From: Pelotomaculum isophthalicicum JI
GTDB taxonomy: Bacteria; Bacillota; Desulfotomaculia; Desulfotomaculales; Pelotomaculaceae
Reading direction: 5' to 3'
Length of the DNA stretch: 64,000 nucleotides
NCBI RefSeq assembly: GCF_029478095.1
Contig: NZ_JAKOAV010000016.1
Span: forward strand, 1 to 64,000
How positions within the stretch are numbered: the first letter of the stretch is position 1; every line of letters begins with the position of its first letter. The position numbers and the translations under genes are program-made. Below the pieces are notes generated by a model. That model was not told the origin of the DNA. It ran no database searches and saw nothing but the letters and a program-made list of their open reading frames with translations. Shown here piece after piece: positions 3,271-60,512 of the stretch.

Positions 3271-3956
3271 TCAGATGTTCGTGTTTTCTCGTCAGGCAAT
3301 ATCCCTATCACAGTTTCTCCGGCTTTGACATGTTCACCCTTTTTTACCAATATTTTAGTGCCGGGTGGGAGGAATAATTCATTGCCGGAACCAAATTTAA
3401 TAATACCGATAATATCACCTGCAGATAAAATATTGCCTTCATTAACCCAGCATTTTATTCTGCGAGCGATAAATCCAGTGATTTGGCAAACCATTATTTT
3501 GAAGCCATTGCTTTCAATACCGATAAAATTTTTTTCATTGATCTCCGAAGCATGGCTTTTAAAGGCCGGTATAAACTTTCCCGGACGATAATGTCTGAAT
3601 TTCACTTCCCCCTGCAATGGTGACCGGTTGATATGCACATTAAAAATAGATAGAAATATAGCGACCCGGATAGTTTTATCCATAATATATTTGTCTTCAA
3701 AGGCTTCTTCTATCTCAATGATTCTGCCGTCCGCCGGTGAGAGAATCAAGTTCCCGTCTTCCGGTATGTTTCTTTTGGGATTACGGAAGAAAAATAGCAC
3801 AAAAAGAAACATCAAGGCAGGAATAGGAGAAAGTATTGGGATATTACGGTACAGGTATGCGAACAGCGCAGCAAGAAGCAACAGATAATGCCAGGTTAAT
3901 CGAAGACTGACGGCAGTCCTGGCAAGCATATTCTCAGATTGATTTTTATTAATCAA
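3267..3956 (-). CDS. psd: Phosphatidylserine decarboxylase
   Basis: 229 residues of the short phosphatidylserine decarboxylase class. Two hydrophobic segments near residues 20-55 anchor it; then come LSPADGRI, HINRSPLQG and, near the C-terminus, KFGSGNELFLPPG. The Gly-Ser in FGS is the expected self-cleavage site that yields the pyruvoyl group. It decarboxylates phosphatidylserine made by the overlapping downstream pssA to phosphatidylethanolamine. The start is TTG, with GGGGAAA about ten bases upstream. psd precedes pssA in the minus-strand transcript. An archaetidylserine-type substrate cannot be excluded by sequence alone. Confidence 0.92.
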   Translation of the reverse strand: MINKNQSENMLARTAVSLRLTWHYLLLLAALFAYLYRNIPILSPIPALMFLFVLFFFRNPKRNIPEDGNLILSPADGRIIEIEEAFEDKYIMDKTIRVAIFLSIFNVHINRSPLQGEVKFRHYRPGKFIPAFKSHASEINEKNFIGIESNGFKIMVCQITGFIARRIKCWVNEGNILSAGDIIGIIKFGSGNELFLPPGTKILVKKGEHVKAGETVIGILPDEKTRTSE

Positions 3957-19882: not shown

Positions 19883-19967
19883 ATGTTAGAAATTTCTACT
19901 TCATTAGATTTATTGACAAATATCCAGCTAATCAATATAATACTGCTGTAATAATATCAATATTAGA

Positions 19968-20206
19968 AACAGGTGTTGAAAAGGAAGAGTAGACCTGTCT
20001 TGGCCATCAGAGAGAAAGTGTCATCGGCTGCAAGCACTTTTGGGTACTATGGGTTGAAAACCACCTTGGAACCGCCGGCTGAAATCACCAGTAAGCCGCG
20101 CCGGAGGCAGCCGTTAACTGTCGTAAAAGAAAGTATATACCCTTAATCAGGGTGGAAACGGGAATATCCCGTCCCTGACAGTTGTCAGAGGCGGGTTTTT
20201 CATTTT
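19968..20206 (+). promoter_or_regulatory. T-box riboswitch (tRNA-Thr) of thrS
   Basis: The leader carries the stem I features (GAAGAGTAG at 19984, CAGAGAGAAAG near 20008, the distal GGCTGCAAGC), a candidate Thr specifier ACC in AAAACCACC near 20060, the conserved T-box AGGGTGGAAACG (20149-20160) and a terminator with GGGATATTCCC-like and GCGGG-TTTTT elements ending near 20206. Uncharged tRNA-Thr would stabilise the antiterminator through the UGGA of the T-box bulge, which predicts a tRNA with UCCA at its end. The exact specifier is inferred. Confidence 0.88.
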
Positions 20207-40190: not shown

Positions 40191-40304
40191 CTCTTATCCG
40201 GAGCGGCGGAGGGACTGGCCCAATGAAGCCCGGCAACCGTTGGGAGTTAAGAACCCAAAATGGTGCTAATTCCAGCAGAAGATTTTTCTTCTGGCAGATG
40301 AGAG
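40191..40304 (+). promoter_or_regulatory. SAM-I riboswitch (S-box)
   Basis: The classic S-box is clear: CTCTTATCCGGAGCGGCGG, GGACTGGCCC, ATGAAGCCCGGCAACC, TGGTGCTAATTCCAGCAG and closing GATGAGAG that pairs with the opening CTCTTATC. The expression platform follows to about 40360, where AGAGG can pair with CCTCT. It should lower expression of the homocysteine genes when SAM is plentiful. Confidence 0.96.
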
Positions 40305-55858: not shown

Positions 55859-56197
55859 ATGAATATGTTTTCCTGGATGCTGGTAGGTCACATGGTAGGT
55901 GATTTTCTGCTTCAAACAGGCTGGATGGCTAAAAAAACTATCAACATTACTTCTTTATTAACCCATTGTTTGGTATACACTTTGACTATCTACATTGCTG
56001 TCTTGCCTGCGGGGGGTCTAAGTCTAAAGGCTATTATCGTTATCTTTGCCAGCCATATTGTTCTGGATCATAGAAAGTTTGTACTCTTCTGGGTTCGCCG
56101 GGTTAACAATGCTGAGAGTCTGCCATGGATGAATATTGTTATTGATCAGTGCTTTCACCTGTTGGTACTGGCATTAACGGCTCAGTATCTGAATTAG
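55859..56197 (+). CDS. DUF3307 membrane protein
   Basis: 112 residues, three or four membrane segments. LVGHMVGDFLLQTGWMAKKK-like start and FASHIVLDHRKF are typical of DUF3307 (function unknown). GGAGGC lies about nine bases before the ATG. An ACAACTAAAAGTTGT hairpin precedes it at about 55800. Confidence 0.8.
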   Translation: MNMFSWMLVGHMVGDFLLQTGWMAKKTINITSLLTHCLVYTLTIYIAVLPAGGLSLKAIIVIFASHIVLDHRKFVLFWVRRVNNAESLPWMNIVIDQCFHLLVLALTAQYLN

Positions 56198-56290
56198 AGT
56201 AAATTAACGTTTGCAGGCTTGTATAATACAACAAAATTTTTATGGACAGGGTAGTTAAAATATGATAAAGTTTTTAACGAAGTGAAGACA

Positions 56291-56415
56291 TGAGTTAGAA
56301 GACCTGCCTGATGTGCGGACTAACAACCTGCCACGAAAGAGGGGTGGTTAAGATAAGTAAAGAATTGGCCGCGAAGGTCTTTTCTCTCATGAAAGAGACC
56401 GTCGTGGTTTTTGTT
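56291..56415 (+). promoter_or_regulatory. Structured leader with terminator, unassigned riboswitch candidate
   Basis: A terminator hairpin GGTCTTTTCTCT (56376-56387)/AAAGAGACC (56392-56400), extended by outer pairs and followed by TTTTTGTTTTTTG, precedes the HdrD-like gene. AGAAGACCT (56297-56305) can pair with AGGTCTTTTCT, the terminator's left arm, giving an exclusive antiterminator. Between them lie CCTGCC, GCGGAC and a CCAC/GTGG hairpin. I could not match this to a known class. Confidence 0.55.
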
Positions 56416-56469
56416 TTTTGTTTTTCATGTTAGAAAAAGTACATATCAATATGAAGGGGGAGTGTGGGG

Positions 56470-58518
56470 ATGCTCAGTACGACAGGCATCATTGTATTCA
56501 TTTTGCTTCTAGCTATAGCTGGCTACTTTTCTGTGATGGGGTTAGCCAAGCTTTATAACAGAGTGAGGATAGGCCGTCCTATCGACCGCTCCGATCGTCT
56601 TATGGAACGTATAATGGGGTTTTTCGGCCGCCAGGATTGTCAGCGTAAGATTGCACGGGAGCCGGGTGCGGCCCTGATGCACCTTCCTATTCTATACGGA
56701 TTAATTTTATTTGCTCTTGGCGCGGTTCATTATGTCCTGGAAAAAGTGATAGGCCTGGTTATATTTGGGTCACCGTACTTTTATTTAATTACTGAAATTG
56801 GCGGTATTGCGCTTCTGTTCGGGATTTTGTTCTCAGCCTGGCGGCGTTATATTCAGAAAATTCCCCGCCTGGACACGGGAACTTGGGAACAAGAAAGATT
56901 TATTGTCTTTCTTATTTCAGATATCAGCTTGATTGTTGTAGCCTTCTTCCTTTCCTATGGGTTTAAACTCATCGGCTCACCCGATTATTTTGACCATTGG
57001 CGGCTTTCCATGGCTCCGGCGAGCCTTCTGGTAGCCTCCTTGTTTAGCAGTGTGGACCCTGCCATGGCCGGCAAGCTTTCGTTGGTCTTTTGGTGGGTGC
57101 ATATATTAGCCGCTTTTACCATGATCGGTGTTCCGCGTTACTCTCCATTGCTTCACCCTGCGGCCGCCCCGCTTAATATTATATTCAGGTATTTGGACAA
57201 TAAGATCGAGCCGATGGAACCAATCGACTTTGAAGATGAAGAGAGAGAAACCTTCGGCGTTAATAAGCTGGCGGATTTTACCTGGAAAGATCTGCTGGAT
57301 TGTTATGCCTGTGCCGAGTGCGGCCGCTGTCAGGATAACTGCCCGGCTTATTTGACCCAGAAGCCACTTTCCCCGAAAAAACTGCTGGCTGAAATCAAAG
57401 AACACCTGGAAGAGATCGTCCCCGGCGAACCGCGGATCAAGACGGTTGACGGTCATTGGGTGTTTGATCAGCAGGAGCAAAAGTCAGAAGATGCTGAGGA
57501 TGCCAAAAAGTTGCTTGGTGAAGTGATTGACGAGCATGCAATCTGGGCTTGCACTACATGCCGGGCCTGCCGTGAACAGTGTCCCAATATGAACGAGCAT
57601 GCCAACAAAATCATGCAACTCAGGCGGGCGTATGTTTTGGACGAGAGCGATTTTCCTGCCGAGGCTCAGTTGACCTTTACCAATATGGAACGGAACTCGA
57701 ACCCCTGGGGGATTGGTTGGGCTGACCGCGCTAACTGGGCTGCCGACCTGGATGTCAAGATCCTTGGTGAGGTTGAGGATGCGGAAAGTGTGGAGTACCT
57801 CTTATACCTTGGCTGCGCCGGATCCTTTGACGAGAGAATAAAGAAAGTATCGACTGCCCTGGTTAAGGTTTTGAATGAAGCGGGAGTAAGTTTCGGCATT
57901 CTGGGCACAGAGGAAAAGTGTTGCGGAGATTCGGCACGGCGGTTGGGTAACGAGTACCTGTTCCAGAGTTTGGCTGAGGAGAATATCGAAACCTTTAAGG
58001 GCTATGGGGTAAAGAAAGTTATTACCGCCTGCCCGCACTGTTTCACAGTGATGAAAAACGATTACAAACAGCTTGGCGCTGACTTTGAGATAATGCACCA
58101 CACCCAGTTGATTGATCAATTAATCAAAGCCGGTAAGATTAAGCCGGGCGCGCTGGGAGAACAAGTAAAGGCGACCTATCATGATTCCTGTTATCTTGGA
58201 CGTTATCATGAAGAATACAGTGCTCCAAGGAATGTTATCGCCGCCGTAAAAGGTGTTTCCCTGGTTGAGATGCCCCGGTCAAAACAAAAAGGCTTCTGTT
58301 GCGGCGCTGGCGGCGGACGCATGTGGCTTGAAGAAGACATCGGCAAACGTATCAATATAGCGCGTACTGAACAGGCTCTGGAACTGGATCCACAGGCTAT
58401 CATCTGCAACTGCCCGTTCTGCCTGACCATGCTGGAAGACGGCTTGAAGGATAAGGAAGCGACTGATCGAGTTAAGGTATATGATATTGCTGAACTAGTT
58501 GCTAAGGCTTCTTCTTAA
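56470..58518 (+). CDS. HdrD-like membrane iron-sulfur oxidoreductase
   Basis: About 682 residues. The N-terminal 250 residues form a NarI-like membrane part with about six segments. Two 4Fe-4S motifs follow (CYACAECGRCQDNCP near 280; CTTCRACREQCP near 360), then two CCG domains with EKCCGDSA/ACPHC and HDSCYLGR/FCCGAGGGRMW/CNCPFC. This is the heterodisulfide reductase D-like protein often found next to electron transfer flavoproteins; it likely passes electrons between a dehydrogenase and menaquinone. ATG 56470 has AAGGGGGAG seven bases upstream. Preceded by a structured leader; no etfAB is in the window. Confidence 0.9.
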   Translation: MLSTTGIIVFILLLAIAGYFSVMGLAKLYNRVRIGRPIDRSDRLMERIMGFFGRQDCQRKIAREPGAALMHLPILYGLILFALGAVHYVLEKVIGLVIFGSPYFYLITEIGGIALLFGILFSAWRRYIQKIPRLDTGTWEQERFIVFLISDISLIVVAFFLSYGFKLIGSPDYFDHWRLSMAPASLLVASLFSSVDPAMAGKLSLVFWWVHILAAFTMIGVPRYSPLLHPAAAPLNIIFRYLDNKIEPMEPIDFEDEERETFGVNKLADFTWKDLLDCYACAECGRCQDNCPAYLTQKPLSPKKLLAEIKEHLEEIVPGEPRIKTVDGHWVFDQQEQKSEDAEDAKKLLGEVIDEHAIWACTTCRACREQCPNMNEHANKIMQLRRAYVLDESDFPAEAQLTFTNMERNSNPWGIGWADRANWAADLDVKILGEVEDAESVEYLLYLGCAGSFDERIKKVSTALVKVLNEAGVSFGILGTEEKCCGDSARRLGNEYLFQSLAEENIETFKGYGVKKVITACPHCFTVMKNDYKQLGADFEIMHHTQLIDQLIKAGKIKPGALGEQVKATYHDSCYLGRYHEEYSAPRNVIAAVKGVSLVEMPRSKQKGFCCGAGGGRMWLEEDIGKRINIARTEQALELDPQAIICNCPFCLTMLEDGLKDKEATDRVKVYDIAELVAKASS

Positions 58519-58855: not shown

Positions 58856-59611
58856 ATGTTGCTGGAAATAAAGAACCTGTCCTTAACAATCGAGGGTGAT
58901 AAAGGTCCTGTGGAGATCCTTAAGGATATCAATATTGTTTTCGAAGAACGCTTGCTATATGTTTTTACCGGACCTAACGGGGGAGGGAAGTCATCCCTGG
59001 CCAAAGTAATCATGGGTATTTATAAACCAACAAGTGGTAAAATCATATTTAACGGCGAGGATATTACTGAGCTTGGAGTGACCGAGCGGGCCAGGTTAGG
59101 TATTGGTTACGCGTTCCAGCAACCCCCCCGTTTTAAGGGCTTGACGGTTGGAGAACTGTTGCAACTAGCAGTAGGAAAAGATAAAATAATGCGGGAATTC
59201 AGTCTGCTTTATGATGTAGGACTTTGCCCTCAGGATTACCTGGAGAGAGAGGTGGATATCAGCCTTTCCGGTGGTGAACTCAAACGGATCGAGATCGCCA
59301 GCCTGTTAGCCAGAGAGCTAAAGATCGCTGTTTATGACGAGCCGGAAGCGGGTATAGATTTGTGGAGTTTTAGCAGATTGACTGAAACGTTTCAAAATTA
59401 TCACAGAACGCACGACACTACAATTGTGCTGATATCGCACCAGGAAAGAATATTAAGTCTCGCTGATGAAATTATCCTGGTAGCTGACGGGATGATCAAA
59501 GAACAAGGAAGTAGAGACGTTATTTGGCCTTTGATTATGGAGGATGCTGGTTGTAACTGCCGTGACGCTTGCAGCGAAGGGAATGAAGAAATTGTTGAAT
59601 GCCATAGATAA
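58856..59611 (+). CDS. SufC-like ABC ATPase of a minimal Suf system
   Basis: 251 residues. Walker A GPNGGGKSS, Q-loop YAFQQPPR, signature LSGGELKRIEIA and Walker B VYDEPEAGID match SufC, the soluble ATPase of iron-sulfur cluster assembly. The C-terminus has an extra cysteine cluster, DAGCNCRDAC, then EIVECHR, that standard SufC lacks. The next gene encodes the SufB-like scaffold. No SufD, SufS or SufU is adjacent, which fits the minimal two-gene type. Confidence 0.87.
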   Translation: MLLEIKNLSLTIEGDKGPVEILKDINIVFEERLLYVFTGPNGGGKSSLAKVIMGIYKPTSGKIIFNGEDITELGVTERARLGIGYAFQQPPRFKGLTVGELLQLAVGKDKIMREFSLLYDVGLCPQDYLEREVDISLSGGELKRIEIASLLARELKIAVYDEPEAGIDLWSFSRLTETFQNYHRTHDTTIVLISHQERILSLADEIILVADGMIKEQGSRDVIWPLIMEDAGCNCRDACSEGNEEIVECHR

Positions 59612-60512
59612 ACATATGTTGCGAACTGTCGCGGGTATGCACGATATCCCCCAGGGAGCTTATAACATCCGTAAGAACGGAGCGGGAATCAGTCGCAATA
59701 CCACGGCAAATATTGAGATTAGAACGAAGGAAGATAAACCTGGAATCGATATTATAGTCAAGCCGGGAACAAAAGGCGAGAGTGTCCACATACCGGTGAT
59801 TTTAACAGCTGAGGGCTTGGAAGACCTGGTATATAACACTTTCGACATAGGAGAGGGAGCCGATGTCCTGGTTGTTGCCGGCTGTGGCATACATAATCCC
59901 GGGGATATGAATGCGCGGCATGACGGAATACATAATTTTATCGTCCGGAAAGGTGCGCGTGTTCGTTATGTTGAGAAACACTATGGTGAAGGAACCGGCC
60001 AGGGCCAAAAAATACTCAATCCGAAAACCATCGTTGAGCTGGAAGAGGATGCTTTTGCGGAGATGGAACTGGTGCAAATAAGCGGTGTTGACAACACAAA
60101 ACGTGACACGGAGGCGCGTTTGCATAAGAATGCTCACCTGTTATTAACTGAGCGGATGCTTACTGACGGCAATCAGTTTGCTGAGTCGAAAGTCCAAGTT
60201 GAACTATTGGGGCAGGATTCTTCTGTCAGGATTATTTCCCGTTCAGTGGGCAGGGATAACTCCAGGCAAATATTTTACCCGCGCGTGGTGGGTTTAAACC
60301 GTTGCCGGGGTCATGTGCAATGTGACTCAATAATCATGCATGAAGCACAGATTAGTTCCATACCTGCAATAGCGGCGCATCATGCGGATGCCCAACTGAT
60401 CCACGAAGCCGCTATCGGGAAGATTGCCGGTGAGCAGTTGATTAAACTCATGTCGATGGGGCTTTCTGAATCTGAAGCTGAAGAAACCATTCTTAAGGGA
60501 TTTTTGAAATAA
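59583..60512 (+). CDS. SufB/SufD-like scaffold of a minimal Suf system
   Basis: About 309 residues, shorter than SufB (about 470). The C-terminal core has QCDSIIMHE, with the cysteine matching the catalytic Cys of SufB, and AQLIHEAAIGKI, with the matching Glu; histidines lie between (AAHHAD). It should form a complex with the SufC-like protein and build iron-sulfur clusters. The start is uncertain: ATG 59583 lies inside sufC with a close GAAGG; ATG 59544 and ATG 59616 are alternatives. Overlap with sufC shows tight coupling. Confidence 0.85.
   Translation: MKKLLNAIDKHMLRTVAGMHDIPQGAYNIRKNGAGISRNTTANIEIRTKEDKPGIDIIVKPGTKGESVHIPVILTAEGLEDLVYNTFDIGEGADVLVVAGCGIHNPGDMNARHDGIHNFIVRKGARVRYVEKHYGEGTGQGQKILNPKTIVELEEDAFAEMELVQISGVDNTKRDTEARLHKNAHLLLTERMLTDGNQFAESKVQVELLGQDSSVRIISRSVGRDNSRQIFYPRVVGLNRCRGHVQCDSIIMHEAQISSIPAIAAHHADAQLIHEAAIGKIAGEQLIKLMSMGLSESEAEETILKGFLK

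Follow-up and report, generated by a model that had tools for sequence, protein, structure and literature searches.

The leader lies directly upstream of a gene for a membrane Fe-S reductase, within the window, which is the entire 64-kb stretch of Pelotomaculum DNA that was analysed. The elements of the locus are as follows.

56243 to 56271, plus strand: promoter-like site, TGGACA and TAAAGT spaced by 17 nt, the latter preceded by TG
56292 to 56308, plus strand: B12 box GAGTTAGAAGACCTGCC, the antiterminator strand, with one mismatch to the B12-box pattern
56325 to 56349, plus strand: P13-like hairpin AACCTGCCACGAAAGAGGGGTGGTT, aligned with P13/L13 of cobalamin riboswitches
56368 to 56412, plus strand: intrinsic terminator, a stem (56368 to 56408) and a U run, kept in six genomes
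56375 to 56390, plus strand: left arm of the terminator, shared with the antiterminator, where it pairs with 56290 to 56305
56456 to 56462, plus strand: GGGGGAG, the ribosome-binding site for the downstream gene, conserved wherever that gene is intact
56464 to 58518, plus strand: HdrD-like membrane Fe-S reductase (Fer4, two CCG domains)

The start of transcription is predicted at about 56277 to 56279. By pattern alone the promoter-like site is not above chance; it is kept in 6 of 6 genomes, and conservation of the locus begins there. Translation of the downstream gene probably starts at ATG 56470. The label HdrD-like, given to this gene in the first-pass annotation, is a fair one; Fer4 and two CCG domains are found in the protein. 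The closest solved chain is 9ojn_A, an ‘iron-sulfur-binding reductase’. A role as ETF:quinone oxidoreductase is suggested by resemblance only, and the inspected neighbours of the gene include no etf gene.

A minimal SUF-like pair, consisting of a SufC-like ATPase and a SufB/D-like protein (58856 to 60512), is conserved 3′ of the reductase gene. The pair is probably independent, since a gap of approximately 340 bp that contains a promoter-like sequence and a hairpin precedes it, and control of these genes by the leader was rejected on the same grounds. Elsewhere the window contains a T-box leader (19967 to 20179, 110 bits) and a SAM riboswitch (40191 to 40304, 90 bits).

Conservation and the competing pairings

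The leader block is present in six species of the Pelotomaculum clade, all of one family. A covariance model of the leaders, run over 113 genomes of the order, found no member beyond these six. The block also occurs in another genome of the species that the window comes from. The leader is identical in the MAG PtaB.Bin013, and nearly so in P. terephthalicicum JT. Conservation runs from the -35 hexamer to the terminator and drops beyond it, with poorly conserved flanks; identity to the window averages 41–44% over the upstream 60 nt and is 75–88% within the block. The three g9 genomes carry the same leader behind a different upstream neighbour. On maximum-likelihood branches, the leader has evolved at about one third of the rate of the flanking suf genes in five of the six species. 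The exception is STF1_190, which has also lost the antiterminator. The core of the hairpin at 56325 to 56349 is invariant in the six genomes, except that three of them lack 2 nt of the loop. A DNA-pattern search with this hairpin in genome and viral collections returned the Pelotomaculum clade together with unrelated sequences, and the latter were discarded as having nothing else in common with the leader.

A strong terminator about 55 bases before the gene had been described from the window alone, and it is both real and conserved. Its sequence is GCCGCGA.GGTCTTTT...AAAGAGACC.TCGTGGT followed by TTTTT, and it ends approximately 51–57 nt upstream of the likely start codon. Alone it folds with about -22 kcal/mol, and with -19 to -22.5 kcal/mol in five relatives. 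A simple terminator scan of the window missed it, presumably because of a mismatch or bulge in the stem. The fold of the whole leader is more stable than that of its dinucleotide shuffles (z -2.4, 0 of 200).

The proposed pairing of AGAAGACCT (56297 to 56305) with the left arm of the terminator is confirmed, the partner being 56375 to 56383, and extends further through ATGAG (56290 to 56294) and CTCAT (56386 to 56390). The computed energy of the duplex is -19.1 kcal/mol; shuffles of the segment average -9.5, and 1 of 1000 of them does as well as the real sequence. Before the right arm of the terminator is transcribed, the antiterminator makes up 99% of the ensemble. In the full transcript the two states lie within 0.2 kcal/mol of each other (-41.7 for the antiterminator and -41.5 for the terminator). 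The leader therefore has the make-up of an attenuator, namely two exclusive pairings of similar stability of which the antiterminator forms first. Energetics and conservation both bear out the first-pass view that the pairings are mutually exclusive, and the separate hairpin placed between them in that annotation is the one at 56325 to 56349. Among the relatives the antiterminator pairing is strong except in P. terephthalicicum (fraction 0.47) and STF1_190 (0.03, lost), which weakens the attenuator reading.

Covariation was also considered, as its absence for the two pairings among relatives had been named as evidence against the first-pass reading. In the six sequences, seven of nine core antiterminator pairs never vary and nearly all pairs of both pairings are invariant. 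The absence of usable covariation thus neither supports nor refutes the pairings, because the pairs lack variation rather than being broken.

Kinship with cobalamin riboswitches

The B12 box at 56292 to 56308 is the sole such site in the window at up to one mismatch. Comparison of two lists, of exact B12-box sites in 25 family genomes and of RF00174 (cobalamin riboswitch) matches, places 72 of 74 sites inside such a match, and the box is therefore a specific marker. BLAST with the leader gives short matches to its positions 42–67 in many genomes, and those that were inspected are the 3′ ends of cobalamin riboswitches.

A profile was built from 49 3′ ends, each spanning the box and P13 region, of genuine RF00174 riboswitches from relatives, with no leader in the training set. 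The best match of the window to this profile is the leader itself (56286 to 56365, 30.6 bits, E 9e-6), the next having an E value of 0.15. With training sequences of its own family removed the leader still scores E 2.5e-6, and in the genome-wide ranking it follows directly after the genuine cobalamin riboswitches. Against the profile of 49 ends, the leader of P. terephthalicicum reaches 27.5 bits and that of PtaU1.Bin035 25.2 bits. When the profile is split, the box only gives E 0.002–0.005, and the part behind the box gives E 1.7, which is weak evidence by itself; the best window match of this second part sits directly behind the box, and drops to second place when the own family is excluded from training. 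In the reverse direction, a model of the six leaders retrieved full cobalamin riboswitches in five genomes of other genera with the box in the same register, and three further matches that are similar terminators only. Common descent of the leader with cobalamin-riboswitch 3′ ends is well supported by these sequence comparisons. The homology is weakened by the three g9 leaders, which reach no significant score with the 3′-end profile (11 bits or less, or no match), and by the E value of 1.7 behind the box.

Several related loci were recorded alongside. A search with profile R2 of loci with homologous genes in other genera found no cobalamin riboswitch before those genes. Three loci in other genera (L143, L145 and L146, at about 1590–1640 of each) have GGCCACGAAGGTCTTTT... 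terminators that resemble that of the leader and are without a B12 box. The window's own genome has a cobalamin riboswitch of 67.6 bits with a degenerate B12 box, AGCCAGAAGACGCCCTG (G000:C15:67870-68052, minus strand). An exact B12 box outside any RF00174 match, with GCCGGCACTGTGA upstream, occurs at G015:C79:17781-17796 and is perhaps another riboswitch remnant.

The ligand-binding core of the riboswitch is absent. RF00174 has no match in the window at the gathering score, and its matches in the genome lie elsewhere, none on the contig of the leader. An Rfam search of 56190 to 56500 at E values up to 10 yields no cobalamin family and chance matches only (CopA-like, snoR17), and T-box, SAM and other Rfam leader models do not match at the leader. 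Only about 12–15 nt separate the predicted start site from the B12 box, and the core with L5 (the GCCACTG region and four-way junction) is missing from them. The hairpin aligns with P13, the RNA has no L5, and visual inspection does not bring out the usual loop motif. As there is neither an RF00174 match nor a core, the leader is not a cobalamin riboswitch by the defining test, and the term riboswitch, used in the first-pass annotation, is unjustified without a sensor. A circularly permuted cobalamin aptamer was considered because GTGCGGAC...CTGCCACG resembles pieces of the core; it was rejected, as the P13 alignment explains that stretch better.

The statement that the leader belongs to none of the known classes has to be corrected. 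No full class matches and no Rfam family is found by the covariance search that had been proposed as a check, while the box and P13-like hairpin are those of a cobalamin-riboswitch 3′ end, a kinship brought out by the 3′-end profile. A match to a known class had been named as grounds for dismissing the riboswitch reading, and the match to the cobalamin class is a partial one.

Possible function and alternative readings

Riboswitches are usually described as an aptamer joined to an expression platform. In experimentally studied cobalamin riboswitches, whether P13, the antiterminator or the terminator forms depends on an L5-L13 kissing loop, and the riboswitch of P. megaterium metE is a repressing, transcriptional example (PMC10653944). 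Like RF00174 members, the leader has a B12 box followed by a P13-like hairpin and an antiterminator opposed to an intrinsic terminator. It is wired in the same manner as a riboswitch that the organism carries ahead of a CbiM-like gene, where, as read from the sequence, the box AGCCAGG faces the terminator arm CCTGGCT. Unlike RF00174 members, it has no P3-P6 and L5 core, its L13 has no clear partner motif, and its downstream gene is not a corrinoid gene. As the core is absent, the leader has no known way to sense cobalamin.

The favoured reading, held to be more likely than not, is that a cobalamin riboswitch lost its core and that its 3′ half, left behind the promoter, now forms the leader and acts as a transcription attenuator. 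Since the switching and stop-signal parts are preserved and the vitamin-binding part is missing, the leader probably regulates transcription without sensing B12, and no response to cobalamin would be expected in the cell. The aptamer would have been lost, with the B12 box, P13-like hairpin and terminator retained directly behind the promoter. The box would pair with the terminator's left arm immediately after transcription of that arm, allowing RNA polymerase to read into the Fe-S reductase gene. With no core to hold the box, read-through should be the default. If the pairing fails or is blocked by some factor, the terminator would form and transcription would stop. A protein, a second RNA or a ribosome positioned at ATG 56290 might mask 56290 to 56305, and such masking would lead to termination. 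Computation shows the elements themselves, their sequence homology, the lack of a core, the competition between the pairings and the conservation in the clade, whereas regulation in the cell, default read-through and insensitivity to cobalamin are inferred. The mutually exclusive antiterminator and terminator are shared with the attenuators of amino-acid operons and other such leaders. Unlike those attenuators, the leader has no conserved leader peptide and no T-box, and its antiterminator strand derives from a B12 box.

One of the six leaders, that of PtaU1.Bin035, stands without its gene, and the relevant feature there is as follows.

G008:C74 locus, about 3579 to 3701, minus strand: what is left of the decayed Fe-S reductase gene, 3′ of a leader that is intact

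In this genome the promoter, the leader and the terminator are retained at 86% identity and everything 3′ of the terminator has decayed; about 50 codons of the gene are left as a decayed stretch and the ribosome-binding site is gone. Changes found in PtaU1.Bin035 only, at sites conserved in the other genomes, number 5 of 103 in the leader, with no gaps, against 17 of 73 in the 5′ gene remnant, with 14 gap columns (p 4e-4). Restricted to the safest 60 nt of the remnant, the same test gives p 0.12. A role of the leader independent of the downstream gene is possible, because the leader is intact where the gene has decayed.

A tentative and rather unlikely extension is that the platform without its aptamer became a conserved RNA of its own, either a small RNA or an attenuator for a new signal, and outlived its target gene as in PtaU1.Bin035. 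If true, selection would have kept a platform after aptamer loss, which would illustrate how riboswitches decay or are reused and a route by which attenuators or small RNAs arise from them. Such derivatives are missed by covariance models made from complete aptamers. A literature search with narrow terms, mostly of papers outside subscription, returned no description of a platform retained after aptamer loss.

The same gene-less copy bears on a somewhat unlikely rival, in which the promoter-to-terminator unit of about 137 nt functions, exclusively or as a second role, as a stand-alone trans-acting small RNA derived from a riboswitch, the gene being served by read-through. It would account for a leader better preserved than the gene remnant and kept after the ribosome-binding site was lost. 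It remains a candidate only, because the p value of 4e-4 becomes 0.12 with the safest 60 nt; moreover, the gene loss in PtaU1.Bin035 may be recent, and in all other genomes the gene is present at a constant distance. SreA of Listeria is a SAM riboswitch with its aptamer retained, unlike the Pelotomaculum leader, from which the aptamer is gone. SAM riboswitches of Listeria are reported to act in trans (SreA; PMC8079631), a precedent for a riboswitch-related transcript that ends at its own terminator and may be retained for a separate function.

It is unlikely that the leader is a relic, in which a former riboswitch has become a constitutive leader that senses nothing and whose antiterminator always wins. 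Without its core the switch would be expected to stay in the ligand-free, or on, state; the antiterminator prevails as long as the right arm has not been transcribed; and the switch has decayed in STF1_190. The slow evolution of the leader in the other five species and the retention of both competing arms argue against this.

An unrelated new riboswitch class, as the first-pass annotation had it, with an antiterminator that resembles a B12 box by chance, is very improbable. No Rfam family matches, and the conserved stretch 56350 to 56367 has no recognised counterpart in cobalamin riboswitches; the profile matches, significant in both directions, argue strongly against it, and the sequence evidence does not point to a new ligand-binding class.

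A small protein gene or leader peptide from ATG 56290 is scarcely credible. This ATG is kept in 5 of 6 genomes, a 33-codon frame MSRKTCLKCGQTTCHERGVEEISKDEAAKVFSS with a CxxC...CH pattern is open in PtaU1.Bin035, and the frame of STE_194 is open too, though shifted from codon 5 onwards. A conserved ORF was rejected because TAG stands at codon 3 both in the window and in P. terephthalicicum and at codon 7 in PtaB.Bin104, and because of 1- and 2-nt indels between species. The CxxC...CH frame is open in that form in PtaU1.Bin035 only, and is broken by stops or indels in most relatives.
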